The notes under the pieces: generated by a model
Seen by the model: the letters and a program-made list of their open reading frames with translations, nothing else
The model's database searches: none
Told to the model about the DNA's origin: nothing
In this document: in pieces, positions 4,734 through 11,610 of the stretch
How positions within the stretch are numbered: the first letter of the stretch is position 1
Layout: each line of letters starts with the position of its first letter
NCBI GenBank assembly: GCA_903822375.1
Contig: CAIJOU010000590.1
Location: 1 to 36,599 of the forward strand
Direction: 5' to 3'
Length of the DNA stretch: 36,599 nucleotides
Origin: Candidatus Hydrogenedentota bacterium
GTDB taxonomy: Bacteria > Hydrogenedentota > Hydrogenedentia > Hydrogenedentales > CAITNO01
Program-made: the position numbers and the translations under genes

Positions 4734-6226
4734 TTTGATTTGGGCTCCGCGGGTTTCTTTTCCAGGGGTTCAATAAGGGAAGGATCGGTCAGGCCGGGAA
4801 ATGAATCGTTTTCAGGCACCGGTATCGCCCGTGCCAGGTACTCCTGGCACCGTCCGGTTTGGCCGCTCGATTCGAGCAGTTGGAAGAAGGCGGTGTCGAA
4901 ATCATAGGCGGCTTTCAGCCGTCCAAGCTGCGCACGCGCATGGGTAAGCGTCGCGTCCACCACCTCCAGCGACGTTGCCACACCCTCCTCGAAGGCCCGT
5001 GTGCGCACGCGCAGATTTTCCGCCGTCAGCGCCAGCGTCGTGTCCAGCGTGTCATACTGCTCCCGTGCCTTTTCCATTTCCTCGTACCGCTTGACGGTGA
5101 GGCTGCGCAGGTCGCGCTGGTATTTTTGCCGCAGATGCGCCACGCGTTCTTCCTGCGCCTTGGCCGCGGACACCTTGTTGCGGACCTGATCCCCGTCAAA
5201 CAGGGTGTACTGGCCGCCAAAACCGAAGGCCCACTTGGGGTCCACGACGCTGCACCCTTCGGGCAGGAGTTCGTACATGCCGAACACGTACGCCGTGGGC
5301 AGGCCCGCACCCTGCTCGGCCCGGACACCCTGGTGCGCCTGTTCGTGCTTGGCGCCCAGCATCGCCAGCACCGGATGCTTGTCGTCCACCGAATCCTGGA
5401 AATACTCCTTTGCCTCCAGGCCCCGCAGGAGAAACAGCGCCGTGGCGGGTTCCACGGGATCGTTCCAGGCCATCGTGTTGGCCAGCCCTTCCGAGGCAAT
5501 CGTCACATCGCGCTCCGCCGCCTCAAGTTCCGCCTTCGCGTTGGCCAGCGCCACTTCCGCATTCAGCGTTTCCGCTTTCGAAATGATACCCTCGTCCATC
5601 AATCGGTGCGCGCGGTGCGCCTGCTGCTCCATCGTGGTTACCTTCAGCGCGGTCACCTCGCGTGCGCGGCGGGCCAGGCACACGCCAAAGTAACGCTGCG
5701 CCAGCTCGGTGACCAACTGGTCCCCCGTGAAACGCAGTTGCGCCTCGGCCTCGTTCTGTTTGGCCGTGGCGGCGCGGTTGGCCGCGTTGATGCGGCCGCC
5801 CGTGTAGACGGGCCAGGTGACCGAAAACTCGGCCTTGGTGAAGTTCTTGTTTTGCATTTTGTAGGCGATTGGAAGCGGGTCAAAAGGGGTGGTGACATCG
5901 GCGTCCAGAAAAGTTGTCCGCAAGTCCAACTCGGCTTTCGGTACTTTGAGCCCCGACACGGCCGCCTTTTCCGCCTCGCGCTGGCGCAGCTCATCGTGGC
6001 CCGCCATGAGGGCCTCATTGCGCTGCTGCACCCGCTGCAGGGCGTCCCCAAAACTCAGGCGCTCCTGCGCCGGGGCTGGGAGGCACAGGAGTGACAGCGC
6101 CACCAACAATCCCATAAGCGCGGCCTTTGCGGCACATGTCCGCCGCGTCCTTGGTTTCATTTCATGCATGATGGTCCGTTTCGAATCTGTCTGCCACACG
6201 AGTTCACCCTGCTTTGCGGGGCTCAA
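4730..6226 (-). CDS. TolC-family outer membrane efflux protein
   Basis: Two OEP-type repeats (ALQRVQQRNEALMAGHDELRQREAEKAAVSGLKVPKAELDLRTTF... and SAAKAQEERVAHLRQKYQRDLRSLTVKRYEEMEKAREQYDTLDTTLALTAENLRVRTRAFEEGVATSLEVVDATL). Alternative start ATG at 6169 (MHEMKPRTRR) precedes the signal peptide. Confidence 0.92.
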   Translation of the reverse strand: MSPAKQGELVWQTDSKRTIMHEMKPRTRRTCAAKAALMGLLVALSLLCLPAPAQERLSFGDALQRVQQRNEALMAGHDELRQREAEKAAVSGLKVPKAELDLRTTFLDADVTTPFDPLPIAYKMQNKNFTKAEFSVTWPVYTGGRINAANRAATAKQNEAEAQLRFTGDQLVTELAQRYFGVCLARRAREVTALKVTTMEQQAHRAHRLMDEGIISKAETLNAEVALANAKAELEAAERDVTIASEGLANTMAWNDPVEPATALFLLRGLEAKEYFQDSVDDKHPVLAMLGAKHEQAHQGVRAEQGAGLPTAYVFGMYELLPEGCSVVDPKWAFGFGGQYTLFDGDQVRNKVSAAKAQEERVAHLRQKYQRDLRSLTVKRYEEMEKAREQYDTLDTTLALTAENLRVRTRAFEEGVATSLEVVDATLTHARAQLGRLKAAYDFDTAFFQLLESSGQTGRCQEYLARAIPVPENDSFPGLTDPSLIEPLEKKPAEPKSK

Positions 6227-6852
6227 GCCTCTGAACCCTGATAAGGACCCGACAAGCGCAGACGGGTCAAGGTTTCAATCACACTGTCTGCTGTTGCAAT
6301 GCCAGGATTGCGCGTCCACCAGTCCAATACCTGCAGCAGCATTCCCACAACACCGTGCGCCGCCACCACGGGATCAATACCGGGAACGATGATGCCGTCG
6401 GCGATTCCCTCGCGCACCCGCAATTCCAGCATGGCGGCCAGGTGTTCCGTGATTTCTGTGCTGACGTTCTTGCGGACCGATTCGGGGTCAAAGAGAATCC
6501 GGCAGAGTCCGGTGTGCGACTCTGCAAAACGCACCAGCACCTCCGTGTGCGCCCGTACGGCTGCCGCCGGGTCCGGTGCGGGGGAGAGCGCCATACGTTG
6601 CAGCGCGCCCATGAGTTCTTCAACGCCCTCGCGCATGATGGCGCGCAGCAGCCCCTGCTTGTCCTTGAAATGAAGATAGAGAGTGCCCACGGCGACCCCG
6701 GCCGCCGTGGCAACATCGGAAGCGCGCGTGTCCGCGACCCCCTGCCTGGCAAAAAGCTCCAGACCCGTCTCCAGCAGGCGCCGCCGGGTTTCAATCCGGC
6801 TACGGTCGCGGGCATTTAGGGCCAGCGCAGCATTTGGATGAATTGAGTTCAC
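6223..6852 (-). CDS. TetR/AcrR-family transcriptional repressor
   Basis: RIETRRRLLETGLELFARQGVADTRASDVATAAGVAVGTLYLHFKDKQGLLRAIM is a canonical TetR_N HTH; GTG start. Confidence 0.95.
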   Translation of the reverse strand: MNSIHPNAALALNARDRSRIETRRRLLETGLELFARQGVADTRASDVATAAGVAVGTLYLHFKDKQGLLRAIMREGVEELMGALQRMALSPAPDPAAAVRAHTEVLVRFAESHTGLCRILFDPESVRKNVSTEITEHLAAMLELRVREGIADGIIVPGIDPVVAAHGVVGMLLQVLDWWTRNPGIATADSVIETLTRLRLSGPYQGSEA

Positions 6853-6962: not shown

Positions 6963-6987
6963 TCGCGAAACCACGGCCGTTTCGCGA
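6963..6987. repeat. Perfect inverted repeat TCGCGAAAC-cacggcc-GTTTCGCGA
   Basis: 9-bp arms, 7-nt loop, directly adjacent to the first heptamer array. Confidence 0.6.
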
Positions 6988-6998
6988 AGTGTGAAGTG

Positions 6999-7053
6999 CT
7001 TTGCCAAAGCTTTACCAAGCCATTGCCGGAACTTCGTATGCGATTGGCACAAT
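6999..7053 (+). promoter_or_regulatory. Heptamer-array promoter module 1 (toward the 63-aa/sigma-like/STAS genes)
   Basis: CTTTGCC(6999) N4 CTTTACC(7010) N4 CATTGCC(7021) N4 CTTCGTA(7032), 9 nt, CACAAT(7048-7053); exact 11-bp period. Confidence 0.6.
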
Positions 7054-7134
7054 GAGGCTCACGAACTGGCCGGCGTTGACCATGACGTTTGCGGCTAACT
7101 TCCCGGGACAGTATCCAGAAAGGACTTCTTTTCC

Positions 7135-7326
7135 ATGAGTACGGTCATCGAATCTTACCCAGGCACGATAAACGCCTGCAGCACCGTGACGGAGGGTGAT
7201 GAACTGGCCCGGAAGTTGGAGAAGGTATTCCAGATATTCCGCCGCGCACAGGAAGACTGGGCCATGAAACACGACCCGGGACAGTCAGCCGGAGGCATGG
7301 AGAAGGATTCCGGCTGTTCTGCCTGA
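7135..7326 (+). CDS. Small hypothetical protein (63 aa)
   Basis: ATG preceded by AAAGGA; MSTVIESYPGTINACSTVTEGDELARKLEKVFQIFRRAQEDWAMKHDPGQSAGGMEKDSGCSA; lies downstream of array module 1. Confidence 0.55.
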   Translation: MSTVIESYPGTINACSTVTEGDELARKLEKVFQIFRRAQEDWAMKHDPGQSAGGMEKDSGCSA

Positions 7327-7422
7327 ATTGACCGGGGAGCGGAGGACTGCGACCAACTTGGGCCGCTTATGGAACCCGGCAGTCAACCACCGCTGCCAAA
7401 CAGCGGGAGCGAGGTGACGAAC

Positions 7423-7713
7423 ATGAACCACGCGATGATGACCAGGGACCATGATTCTGAACAACTGCTTCTGTCGCATCTTGAACTGTGCTATTCGGTG
7501 GCGCTTGCGCTGACCCGCAATGTAAATCTGGCGCTTGCGCTGACGAAAGACACGCTGCTGTGGGCCTGGCAGCGCAACGACGGCTCGTGGGATGAGGATA
7601 TCATGAAAAAATCGCTCTTGCGCGAGTTGCGCGACAGGTATTTGCGCGACTACCAGCTTGCGGGCGGCCGGGGCGCAGCCGGTGAACAACGTCTTCCGAA
7701 AGTGGAAGAGTGA
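7423..7713 (+). CDS. Truncated sigma70 region-2-like protein
   Basis: Start MNHAMMTRDHDSEQLLL with RBS GAGGTG. SEQLLLSHLELCYSVALALTRNVNLALALTKDTLLWAWQ matches the ECF region 2.1-2.2 pattern (LL..Y..LYR.AL.LTGN...A.DL.QET.L.AW). No region 4. Confidence 0.6.
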   Translation: MNHAMMTRDHDSEQLLLSHLELCYSVALALTRNVNLALALTKDTLLWAWQRNDGSWDEDIMKKSLLRELRDRYLRDYQLAGGRGAAGEQRLPKVEE

Positions 7714-8018
7714 AGGACTACGCGGAAGGTCCCGTCGGCGGCAGGCTCGGCGTGCGCATTGGACCCGAATGGACAGAGGTGCGTATTCCACGCGCAGAGA
7801 CGGAAGAGCAGCATTCTTCCCTGGAAGAGGAACTCCTGTCATACCTTGACCGCCATTCCGCAACCACGTGGGCCATAGACCTGTCCGAACATGTGGGCGG
7901 CGTGACTCTCGCACTTGCCGGAATGCTTGCCCGCTTCCGGGAAGAGGCGCGGCGACGGGGTTGCGAGGTGAGGTACTCGGGGCTGAGGCAGGACTGCGTA
8001 TCCTGCCTGGCCGAATAG
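7710..8018 (+). CDS. STAS-domain-like protein (anti-anti-sigma fold)
   Basis: GTG start overlapping the preceding stop (GTGA). TTWAIDLSEHVGGVTLALAGMLARFREEARRRGCEVRYSGLR has the beta-alpha-beta pattern of STAS proteins. Confidence 0.55.
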   Translation: MKDYAEGPVGGRLGVRIGPEWTEVRIPRAETEEQHSSLEEELLSYLDRHSATTWAIDLSEHVGGVTLALAGMLARFREEARRRGCEVRYSGLRQDCVSCLAE

Positions 8019-8169
8019 GAGGGGGAACAGCACGGCATCTTTCGCCTGAACGGCAGCGCCTTGGGGGGCTGCATCGGCAGTGCTGGCGGATTGGCCTTGA
8101 TTTTGCATGCGCGAATCTTCAGGTTGCCGCGGCTTCACGGTTCTGAAATGCGAAAATCACCCCATTCTC

Positions 8170-10029
8170 TCACCGCGCAACGCCGCATCCACCCACGATG
8201 GTGATTGACGAATAGAATTCACTGCGCATTATAAAGTTGTAGTACAGGGGGCCGAGGTTCCGGCCAAAAACAATCAGGGGGAGATTGCCCAGCTTCAGGG
8301 CAATCGTATCCTCGACGTCGCCAAAGGGGCATGCGCCCGTGTCGGCCACAAAATCGGAAAGGCGCCCCCTTACAGGCGTGACGCTGAACGACGAGGTCCC
8401 AAAAACGCTGACAAAAGCCTTCCCGGGTATAAAGGACTGGGGGGCGATCCTCTGCGCATTGGGCGATATCCCCGGGAGCAGGAAGAGGTCTTCAAGAGCC
8501 TCGTAGCTGTACAACCAGCCGGTTGCATAGGCCATGTAATAATGCGTTGTCTTGTCGTTCAGGGAGTGGTCGACCGCCGTCAGTTTCCAGCATTGGCACC
8601 CGTTGATTATGAACTCCTCCGAAACCTCCGCGCTGATCCCATCGTTTCCATGGGTTCCCGGCGTCACCCATCTATTGCCGACCGCAAGCGGGTAATAGTC
8701 ACAGATTGAGATGCTCCTCGTGGAGAGCACCAGATTCACCGGAGTGCCCGGAGGCACCAGCGTTCCTTTTGCCGGATCCTGGCCTGTCACGCTGCCTTCT
8801 GGAACGGTGTCACTGTACTGCTCTGTTATCGTGCCCACAGTCAGGCCCGCGCTGGTTACGGTTGCCTGTGCATCCGTCTGGGTTCTTCCTGCCGCATTGG
8901 GCACGGCCACCGGTTGCGGACCCTGTGAAAAAACAAGACTGACCGCAGTACCCGGAATCATGATTATGCCGGCGGCCGGGTCCTGGCCAATCACGCGGCC
9001 TGCAGGCACGGTCACGCTCCACACCTGGTTCACACTGCCCAAGGAAAAACCCGCACCCGTAACCGTCGCCTCCGCATCGGACCGGGTTTTCCCGGCGACA
9101 TCCGGGACGGCCACCGACTGCGGTCCCTGGGAAACAGCCAGGTCAACTGCCGTACCCGGAACTGTCATCGCGTCGGCGGCAGGATTCTGACTTATTACGC
9201 AGCCCGCCGGCACTGTTGCACTGGACCCCGGCACCACACTGCCAATGGTGAAACCCGCGGACACCATTGCGGTTTCGGCATCTGCCTCAGTCCTGCCCAC
9301 CACGTTGGGCACAGCCACCGGTTGCGGCCCCTGCGATACGGTCAGACTAACCGTCGCACCGGGCAACGTGAGCGTTGCCGCTGCCGGATCCTGGCTGATA
9401 ACGTTACCCGCCGCAGTCAACGGGTTGTGGAGTTGTGTCACGGTGCCCACGGTCAGGCCCGCTTCCGTGATAACGGTTTGCGCCTCGGCCCGCACCCGGC
9501 CCACCACGTCGGGCACGACTGCCGGCTGCGGCCCGAGGGAACACAACAGGTCCACACCCGCGCCGGAGGACACGCCCGTCCCCGCTGCCGGGTCTTGGCT
9601 AATCAGGTTGCCCGCGGGAACCGTTGCGCTGTATGCCCACCGGATATTCCCCGGCTTGAGCCCTTCCGGGAGCAGAGTCGCCTGCGCTTGGGACAGCGTG
9701 ATGCCCGTGACGTCGGGAACCGTCATGGAACCCGTCTTGGTGCATCCGCCAACCGTACCGGAAGCAAATGCGTTCAGCAAAGACAAGAACCGTATCACAG
9801 GATTCTGGCTGGTCACGTTGCCGGCGCTTGCCGTCGCCCTGTCCGGCCACCGGATACTTCCCGGCATCAGCCCCTCCAGGAGCAGGGGCATTCCCCCCTG
9901 TGTCTGCGTGATGTTCGTGGGAACGGGAACGAGCATGAAGGCCGGCTGGGAGCATCCTCCAACCACAAAGTATGCAGCCAGTACCATCAGCACCAAGCCC
10001 AAATACCGACACCTGACGAGAATGCACAT
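8170..10029 (-). CDS. Lipoprotein with tandem PASTA domains
   Basis: ATG 10029 with RBS TGAGGAGA; lipobox FVVGGC; about 7 repeats of the type VAVPNVVGRTEADAETAMVSAGFTIGSV...VPAGxVISQNPAAxxxxxPGTxVxLxVSQGPQ. The ORF track starts further upstream. Confidence 0.88.
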   Translation of the reverse strand: MCILVRCRYLGLVLMVLAAYFVVGGCSQPAFMLVPVPTNITQTQGGMPLLLEGLMPGSIRWPDRATASAGNVTSQNPVIRFLSLLNAFASGTVGGCTKTGSMTVPDVTGITLSQAQATLLPEGLKPGNIRWAYSATVPAGNLISQDPAAGTGVSSGAGVDLLCSLGPQPAVVPDVVGRVRAEAQTVITEAGLTVGTVTQLHNPLTAAGNVISQDPAAATLTLPGATVSLTVSQGPQPVAVPNVVGRTEADAETAMVSAGFTIGSVVPGSSATVPAGCVISQNPAADAMTVPGTAVDLAVSQGPQSVAVPDVAGKTRSDAEATVTGAGFSLGSVNQVWSVTVPAGRVIGQDPAAGIIMIPGTAVSLVFSQGPQPVAVPNAAGRTQTDAQATVTSAGLTVGTITEQYSDTVPEGSVTGQDPAKGTLVPPGTPVNLVLSTRSISICDYYPLAVGNRWVTPGTHGNDGISAEVSEEFIINGCQCWKLTAVDHSLNDKTTHYYMAYATGWLYSYEALEDLFLLPGISPNAQRIAPQSFIPGKAFVSVFGTSSFSVTPVRGRLSDFVADTGACPFGDVEDTIALKLGNLPLIVFGRNLGPLYYNFIMRSEFYSSITIVGGCGVAR

Positions 10030-10190
10030 GCCGTTCTCCTCAGAAAAGCTGTCCCGGCACCTCCACCACAGACACCTTGTTAAGCATGAACGTTCCTTTC
10101 TCGAAGCCTTGGGGCTCACAGTTTAACCTTGGATCCGTGAAGGCTGTCGTAATGACCGCGGCAGCCGCCTGCGGCCGTTTCGCCAGCTTT

Positions 10191-10245
10191 ATTGTGGCAA
10201 AGGCAGGTAAAATTCATGCAAAGGTTTGGCAAATTTTAGGTAAAG
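10191..10245 (-). promoter_or_regulatory. Heptamer-array promoter module 2 (toward the PASTA lipoprotein)
   Basis: Minus strand: CTTTACC(10245-10239) N4 ATTTGCC(10234-10228) N4 CTTTGCA(10223-10217) N4 TTTTACC(10212-10206), 9 nt, CACAAT(10196-10191). Confidence 0.6.
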
Positions 10246-10300
10246 AAATCCCCTTTCGCAATCAGACGGGCACGGATTGTCGGCCTGAGCGAAGTCCCGC

Positions 10301-10489
10301 TTACTGTCTCAGCCTTTGCACAAACTCGTTGAGAAGTTCCTCGTGCGCCTGATGACCCTTCACACAGCCATAGCGGTCTTGGAGCTTGTCGACAACACTG
10401 CGATGCTTGAAGTAAATGGTCGCCGCGGCGGCAACACAAAGTCGTCCCACGTTCTCCCTGAACTTTCCTAAGGGCTGTTCCCTGTTCAT
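10301..10489 (-). CDS. Small hypothetical protein (62 aa)
   Basis: RBS GGAGACAAACC-ATG; MNREQPLGKFRENVGRLCVAAAATIYFKHRSVVDKLQDRYGCVKGHQAHEELLNEFVQRLRQ; lies downstream of array module 3. Confidence 0.6.
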   Translation of the reverse strand: MNREQPLGKFRENVGRLCVAAAATIYFKHRSVVDKLQDRYGCVKGHQAHEELLNEFVQRLRQ

Positions 10490-10584
10490 GGTTTGTCTCC
10501 TATAAGACTGAACTTCATCTATCCACGCCCGTAAAGGCTGGTACCGTGACTGCCACGGTCACCCGGGGGCATTTCTTCAACCTC

Positions 10585-10639
10585 ATTGTGCCAAACGCAG
10601 GTAAAGTCCCGGCAAAGGTGCGGCAACGATTGGGCAAAG
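10585..10639 (-). promoter_or_regulatory. Heptamer-array promoter module 3 (toward the 62-aa protein)
   Basis: Minus strand: CTTTGCC(10639-10633) N4 CGTTGCC(10628-10622) N4 CTTTGCC(10617-10611) N4 CTTTACC(10606-10600), 9 nt, CACAAT(10590-10585). Confidence 0.6.
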
Positions 10640-10665
10640 AATTCCGCTTTGCGAAGGGTGTGATT

Positions 10666-10720
10666 CTTTGCCAAAGCTTTACGCGCATTTTGCCCACGCT
10701 TCATGTCCCCCTGCTAACCT
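10666..10720 (+). promoter_or_regulatory. Heptamer-array promoter module 4 (toward the BON protein)
   Basis: CTTTGCC(10666) N4 CTTTACG(10677) N4 TTTTGCC(10688) N4 CTTCATG(10699), 9 nt, TAACCT(10715-10720); divergent from module 3. Confidence 0.58.
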
Positions 10721-10830: not shown

Positions 10831-11610
10831 ATGACACTGAAAGCAATGTATCCCCTGGCGTTTGCGGCGGCTGTGGCCGCACTGTTCGTGGTCTGCATGC
10901 CCGCGCGCGCGTCGGGTGCCGATGACGGGATCAAGTCGTCGTTCACGCAGAGCTACGTCTATAAGACCTATCTCAAGGACGACGCGGTCAAGATCGAGGC
11001 CAAAGACGGCGTCGTCACGCTGACCGGAACGGTGGCCGAGGAATCCCACAAGAACCTGGCGCAGGAGACCGCCGCGAACCTGGCCGGGGTCAGCCGCGTG
11101 GACAATCAACTCACGACCAAAACCCCGGTCTCCGCCGAACTCTCGGATGCCTGGGTCACGGGAAAAGTGAAACTCGCGCTGCTGTTCCATCGCAGTGTCA
11201 ACGTCGTCAAGACCAACGTCGACGTGAAAGACAGAATCGTGACGCTGAAAGGCGAAGCGTCAAGCGTCGCCCAGAAGGAACTGACCACGGAATATGTGAA
11301 GGATGTCGCAGGCGTGAAAGGGGTGAAGAACGAAATGACGGTGGCGGCGACTCCGGAACCGCAGACGAGAACCGCAGGCGAGAAAATCGATGACGCTTCC
11401 ATCAGCGCACAGGTCAAGTTGGCACTGCTGACCCATCAATCGACCAGTGCCGCCAAGACCAAGGTTCAGACACGGGACGGCGTGGTCACGTTGACGGGCA
11501 TTGCAAAGAATGCGGCCGAGAAGACCCTTGTCACCAAGCTGGTCGAAGACATTCAGGGGGTGACCAGCGTGAAGAACGAAATGACCGTCGAAGAAGTCAA
11601 AACCAAGTAG
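10831..11610 (+). CDS. Exported triple-BON-domain protein (OsmY-like)
   Basis: ATG 10831 with RBS CGAGGAAA; signal peptide MTLKAMYPLAFAAAVAALFVVCMPARASG; three BON repeats (VKIEAKDGVVTLTGTVAEESHKNLAQETAANLAGVSRVDNQL, VDVKDRIVTLKGEASSVAQKEL..., VQTRDGVVTLTGIAKNAAEKTL...). The track start at 10546 is too early. Confidence 0.9.
   Translation: MTLKAMYPLAFAAAVAALFVVCMPARASGADDGIKSSFTQSYVYKTYLKDDAVKIEAKDGVVTLTGTVAEESHKNLAQETAANLAGVSRVDNQLTTKTPVSAELSDAWVTGKVKLALLFHRSVNVVKTNVDVKDRIVTLKGEASSVAQKELTTEYVKDVAGVKGVKNEMTVAATPEPQTRTAGEKIDDASISAQVKLALLTHQSTSAAKTKVQTRDGVVTLTGIAKNAAEKTLVTKLVEDIQGVTSVKNEMTVEEVKTK

Follow-up and report, generated by a model that had tools for sequence, protein, structure and literature searches.

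The Pho-box motif differs between species, as in the forms CTGTCAT and GTTCACC (PMC4415409, PMC1906773). In cyanobacteria, the SphR box has the consensus CTTAACCT, three or more copies following one another in tandem; CTTTACC and CTTTACT are found as natural variants (PMC1906773). The OmpR-type factor RpaB, also from cyanobacteria, binds HLR1, a direct repeat of (G/T)TTACA(T/A)(T/A) (PMC9241938). PhoP of Mycobacterium tuberculosis recognises 7-bp motifs repeated directly with 4 bp in between (PMC4832192). The SARP operators of Streptomyces consist of two or three heptameric direct repeats, classically in 11-bp units, and overlap the -35 region (PMC10972967). As regards stress responses, the general stress response of an alphaproteobacterium acts directly on csbD and ecnAB (PMC7083833).

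We analysed a stretch of 36,599 nucleotides (contig C590) from a Candidatus Hydrogenedentota bacterium, referred to below as the window. It contains four arrays of degenerate CTTTRCC heptamers with starts 11 bp apart. In each array the last heptamer is followed, after 9 nt, by a hexamer, CACAAT in three cases and TAACCT in one, itself preceded by TGG or TGC. All this had been described in an earlier sequence-only reading and is confirmed by direct inspection of the DNA (Table 1). Arrays A3 and A4 form a divergent pair with 26 bp between their first heptamers. In A1 and A4 the third and fourth heptamers show clear degeneracy (for example CTTCGTA in A1 and CTTCATG in A4).

Table 1. Candidate regulatory arrays and downstream genes in the window (positions of the 36,599-nt stretch; scores of arrays from the own-genome covariance model)
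Feature	Position	Strand	Heptamer starts	Sequence or annotation	Score
Array A1	6999..7053	+	6999/7010/7021/7032	CTTTGCC aaag CTTTACC aagc CATTGCC ggaa CTTCGTA tgcgattgg CACAAT	52.8 bits
63-aa ORF	7135..7326	+		first gene after A1; no Pfam family	
114-aa ORF	7369..7713	+		A1 gene set; no Pfam family (96-aa form scanned)	
102-aa STAS-like protein	7710..8018	+		A1 gene set; PF13466, under the 29.2-bit cut-off	25.3 bits
PASTA-repeat lipoprotein	8170..10029	-		putative target of A2; PF03793, five stretches	E 2.9e-70
Array A2	10191..10245	-	10245/10234/10223/10212	CTTTACC taaa ATTTGCC aaac CTTTGCA tgaa TTTTACC tgcctttgc CACAAT	52.1 bits
62-aa ORF	10301..10489	-		first gene after A3; no Pfam family	
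Array A3	10585..10639	-	10639/10628/10617/10606	CTTTGCC caat CGTTGCC gcac CTTTGCC ggga CTTTACC tgcgtttgg CACAAT	58.4 bits
Array A4	10666..10720	+	10666/10677/10688/10699	CTTTGCC aaag CTTTACG cgca TTTTGCC cacg CTTCATG tccccctgc TAACCT	39.1 bits
259-aa triple-BON protein	10831..11610	+		putative target of A4; PF04972, three stretches	E 3.4e-43

Against the pattern of four CTTTRCC units the arrays score, from best to worst, 27, 25, 24 and 23 of 28. The best score in 30 second-order Markov shuffles of the window was 20/28, and period 11 alone stands out, all other periods from 8 to 22 giving at most 21/28. The shuffles and the period scan rule out chance repeats as the source of the arrays. A TT(T/C)GCGAAG-like stretch, outside the 11-bp register, is common to the window arrays just upstream of the first heptamer (6981-6998, 10246-10263, 10640-10660). 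A candidate TetR-type regulator, recognised by reading, is encoded upstream of A1 and divergently from it (6223-6852, minus strand).

Alignment of 48 sites produced the approximate consensus [CG]TTTACC-nAAn-CTTTACC-n4-[CG]TTTGCC-n4-[CG]TTTAC[CG]-9 nt-TAnAAT. The last T of the -10 box is invariant in this alignment and the G of the extended -10 box is present in 92% of the sites, some of which had been chosen by a model already containing the -10 box. At ten independent loci picked by their heptamers, the -10-like bases peak at one offset (34/40 key bases vs. 21/40 at the second-best one); the final T is present in 10/10 and the extended -10 G in 9/10; the register of one five-unit locus in this set was fixed with the -10 box in view. 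There is no -35 hexamer, as its expected position is occupied by heptamer 3 and the adjacent linker. The sequence-only reading had likened the arrays to class II promoters of the OmpR/PhoB type, with repeats in place of the -35 box. This likeness holds: the heptamers stand head-to-tail with a period of 11 bp, and 9-10 bp separate the end of the operator from a fixed extended -10 box. A sigma-54 promoter, with TGGCAC read as the -24 element, was set aside, the consensus being TGn-TAnAAT at a fixed offset.

The arrays are oriented toward genes, and twelve divergent pairs were found, of which A3/A4 is the tightest. The earlier reading had proposed to scan the genome and its relatives for intragenic hits and for conservation of the 11-bp phase. 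The sites avoid long reading frames, the stop-free stretches in which they lie having a median length of 142 codons as compared with 352 for random positions (p = 9e-21). In genome G002, the ortholog of the PASTA gene (62% identity) is preceded by an array in the correct phase despite diverged heptamers. One possibility is that the arrays are a dispersed family of short repeats that happen to lie between genes, as there are many copies per genome and some loci have five or six units. However, the fixed 9-nt gap to a conserved extended -10 box, the orientation toward genes and the low identity outside the heptamers make this explanation very improbable.

The arrays are not confined to the window. 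In the whole 6.25-Mb genome, whose assembly is 83% complete, the exact pair CTTTRCC-N4-CTTTRCC has 13 matches vs. one for the reversed control. A sequence-only covariance model trained on 16 sites from this genome finds 21 sites scoring at least 25 bits, the next best candidate having 11.8 bits. With a second covariance model, built from 46 sites and applied at E <= 1e-3 to 68 genomes of the order (the class-level set consists of the same 68 genomes), arrays were found in 18 genomes, and 50 had no match. The numbers of sites are 21 in the genome of origin, 19 in G047, 14 in G051, 10 in G001 and 9 in G059; G013 has a single weak match. In total, the four-repeat arrays mark roughly a hundred promoters over this bacterium and many relatives, the majority belonging to stress or envelope genes. 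Of the earlier description as a local regulon of four CTTTRCC units, the arrays themselves stand, but both the own-genome count and the spread over 18/68 genomes rule out a purely local regulon, and the number of units is not always four, there being five at contig C832 of the same genome and six in G001. A literature search, largely of open-access papers, found no published account of the motif or of a matching regulon.

In some genomes the arrays are clustered in gene islands. About a dozen occur within 36 kb of contig C130 of G051 (L290-L291, C130:1-40000), with an RR832 gene (see below) on the same contig, and eight on contig C518 of G047 (L292). A metagenome-assembled genome labelled Candidatus Omnitrophota (G068) has 8 array matches at E <= 0.01. 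Its locus L163 combines the kinase, RR832, a receiver and arrays; either the whole system has spread between phyla or the genome is mislabelled.

The genes following the arrays were taken from mechanical ORF calls, and some assignments are therefore uncertain. Outside the window, candidate targets encode DnaK (HSP70), CsbD, DUF3309, YflT, PRC-barrel, dodecin, KaiC, WXXGXW-repeat and ice-binding-like proteins, as well as glycine-zipper and entericidin-like lipoproteins and DnaJ (the entericidin-like proteins and DnaJ were assigned by eye). The commonest gene after an array encodes a small CheY/Rcp1-like single-domain receiver without an output domain: among 97 downstream ORFs scanned, 17 belong to the receiver family and 6 to CsbD. 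Such receiver genes are present as several paralogs per genome and have no DNA-binding domain (L013, L014, L015, L100, L103, L104, L105, L109, L113, L116, L117, L290, L292, L298, L300, L302, L350). A search that started from the CsbD family rather than from the motif identified, in array-bearing genomes, six CsbD genes with a same-strand array starting at most 500 bp upstream; in several other array-bearing genomes this search found CsbD with no array upstream.

The sequence-only reading had suggested a shared regulon and proposed to look for stress and envelope genes among the hits; CsbD and other stress genes indeed recur downstream of arrays. The typical general-stress genes, that is, CsbD, YflT, chaperones, DUF3309 and BON, are all represented, and by its gene content the array-controlled set looks like a general or envelope stress regulon. 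Two labels in the window fared less well: the 114-aa ORF, called sigma-like, has no Pfam match, and the STAS match of the 102-aa protein is present but below the family cut-off. Another STAS-like gene lies downstream of an array in G061.

Domain search of the genome of origin identified seven Trans_reg_C domains, and none of the OmpR type on the window's contig. The earlier statement that the regulator is not encoded next to the arrays is thus correct for the window, but not elsewhere. The gene of a hitherto unassigned OmpR/PhoB-type response regulator, here named RR832 (C832:2707-3429), is located approximately 100 bp upstream of a five-unit array, which in turn precedes an Rcp1-like receiver gene. 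Including this one, ten array-flanked regulators were found (C832, G001, G030, G035, G038, G041, G047, G051, G064 and L163), the adjacency being loose (1-5 kb) in G030, G041, G051 and G064. The protein search for RR832 orthologs in G001, G030, G035 and G038 led to contigs on which the motif search had independently found arrays. At L163, four arrays surround the pair of kinase and regulator genes within 7 kb. A profile scan of named genomes returned, among the matches listed, mostly generic OmpR proteins; L163 was used as a relative and the rest as controls. No array above 12 bits was observed in 644 kb of DNA flanking 79 other OmpR-family loci.

Several observations make the RR832 two-component system the most likely controller of the arrays, as judged by comparison of genomes and proteins. 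Firstly, the ten array-flanked regulators fall into one clade (98/95 support), which also contains five regulators with no adjacent array seen. Secondly, they have in common the recognition helix PKxxDVHIxHxR, which differs in the array-free paralogs from the same genomes. Finally, regulators of the RR832 class and arrays co-occur: of the 68 genomes, 12 have both, five only the regulator (G043, G044, G045, G058 and G060), six only arrays and 45 neither, so that arrays are present in 12/17 genomes with the regulator vs. 6/51 without it (p = 9e-6; since the genomes are related, neither this nor the other tests are independent). A gene for a PAS-HisKA-HATPase kinase was found by domain search directly upstream of the regulator gene in G001 and L163, and a similar kinase-like ORF in G021 and G030. 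There is a second RR832 copy in the genome of origin (G000, C863:145-537, L130) with most of the receiver domain missing and the DNA-binding domain intact (85% identity); it may be constitutively active or act as a competitor, or else result from misassembly.

The arrays could instead be bound by another regulator, of the SARP type or with another OmpR fold, RR832 being merely a neighbour or a target. SARP operators, too, have heptamers repeated directly every 11 bp and overlap the -35 region (PMC10972967), and five genomes with good arrays (G002, G005, G010, G059 and G065) have no detectable RR832-class regulator in their fragmented assemblies, a low-threshold search yielding generic regulators only. 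These five genomes are the most serious difficulty for control by RR832, and the five genomes with a regulator of this class but no array match also speak against it. On the other hand, none of the seven Trans_reg_C domains in the 83% complete assembly reads as a SARP, and the recognition helix is conserved in the array-linked regulators but differs in array-free paralogs. We therefore consider another regulator unlikely, and retain RR832 as the candidate.

The next question is whether the arrays are true Pho boxes of a divergent phosphate-starvation regulon under PhoB or SphR. The 7+4 unit and the distance of about 10 bp to the -10 box are shared (PMC4415409, PMC1906773), and a single base separates the array motif from the SphR consensus, of which CTTTACC variants exist (PMC1906773). 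The earlier remark that the arrays differ from the Pho box in motif and in having four units rather than two is correct with respect to the E. coli box only; it fails for the SphR box with its three or more copies (PMC1906773). However, the 180 bits that RR832 scores with the PhoB equivalog TIGR02154 fall short of the cut-off of 296, and RpaB and MtrA are at least as near to RR832 as PhoB is. The nearest NCBIfam model is that of RpaB (186 bits, cut-off 330), the score is also under the MtrA cut-off, and RR832 misses all the NCBIfam equivalog cut-offs listed by a wide margin, the models of RpaB, MtrA and PhoB being the nearest; its best sequence match with a solved structure is MtrA (2gwr). A more PhoB-like protein of the same genome, encoded on C456, scores 237 bits with the PhoB equivalog. 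Besides, inspection of downstream genes, including the best 25 families of the tally, revealed none recognisable as encoding Pst, PhoU or a phosphatase. The low scores of RR832 and the better candidate on C456 are the reason why we do not assign the module to the Pho regulon, an assignment we regard as unlikely.

The promoter architecture, its recurrence in the genome and across genomes, its linkage to RR832, the joint occurrence of the two and the stress-type gene content are all seen at the level of sequence. On this basis, the arrays are probably operators through which a PAS histidine kinase and RR832 control a genome-wide general or envelope stress regulon. The kinase would phosphorylate RR832, whose dimers would bind the four CTTTRCC-N4 units head-to-tail, one subunit per 11-bp helical turn, the four bound units making two tandem Pho-box-like sites. 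The promoter-proximal units would replace the -35 box and recruit sigma-70 RNA polymerase to the extended -10 box (TGn-TAnAAT) 9 nt downstream, switching on the stress genes together with a set of single-domain receivers. Since the layout and spacing match those of Pho boxes (PhoB, SphR) and SARP sites, the module is predicted to work like a PhoB class II promoter. We infer the binding of RR832, the use of sigma-70 and the signal; it is the promoter layout that suggests activation rather than repression.

Alternative sigma factors such as sigma-S, sigma-B and EcfG are usually held responsible for general stress responses. In the present case, a comparable set of stress genes is apparently run by a two-component DNA-binding regulator via a stereotyped four-unit operator. 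With somewhat less confidence, we lean toward seeing in it an undescribed general stress response of an uncultured order, in which a subclade of OmpR-family regulators devoted to it and a fixed operator of four units take the place of an alternative sigma factor, covering at least 20 promoters per genome, and feeding forward onto many Rcp1-like receivers. Such a system would be portable, as it is also present in the Omnitrophota-labelled genome. With the motif, stress genes, including many whose function is unknown, can be traced genome-wide in lineages seemingly known mainly from metagenomes. The regulator, kinase and operator named here can be studied in vitro without culturing the host.

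Among known systems, the arrays resemble the sites of PhoB from E. coli and SphR in having head-to-tail 11-bp units (7 conserved and 4 variable positions) that replace the -35 box and leave about 10 bp to a sigma-70 -10 box downstream (PMC4415409, PMC1906773). They differ in the CTTTRCC core, in four units as a rule, in stress rather than recognised phosphate targets, and in a regulator below the PhoB cut-offs. HLR1 has two units with a 2-nt gap (10-bp period) and another core, and RR832 is far under the 330-bit cut-off of RpaB. PhoP and MtrA of Mycobacterium are likewise OmpR-family regulators, but with other motifs and regulons. SARPs, unlike the array regulon, activate antibiotic clusters, and no SARP candidate was seen in the genome of origin. 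The alphaproteobacterial PhyR-NepR-EcfG system likewise has a two-component input, and its targets, among them csbD and ecnAB, overlap in kind with those of the arrays (PMC7083833). However, in that system an ECF sigma factor reads GGAAC-N16-CGTT, whereas for the arrays we propose that four units next to an extended -10 box are recognised by a DNA-binding response regulator.
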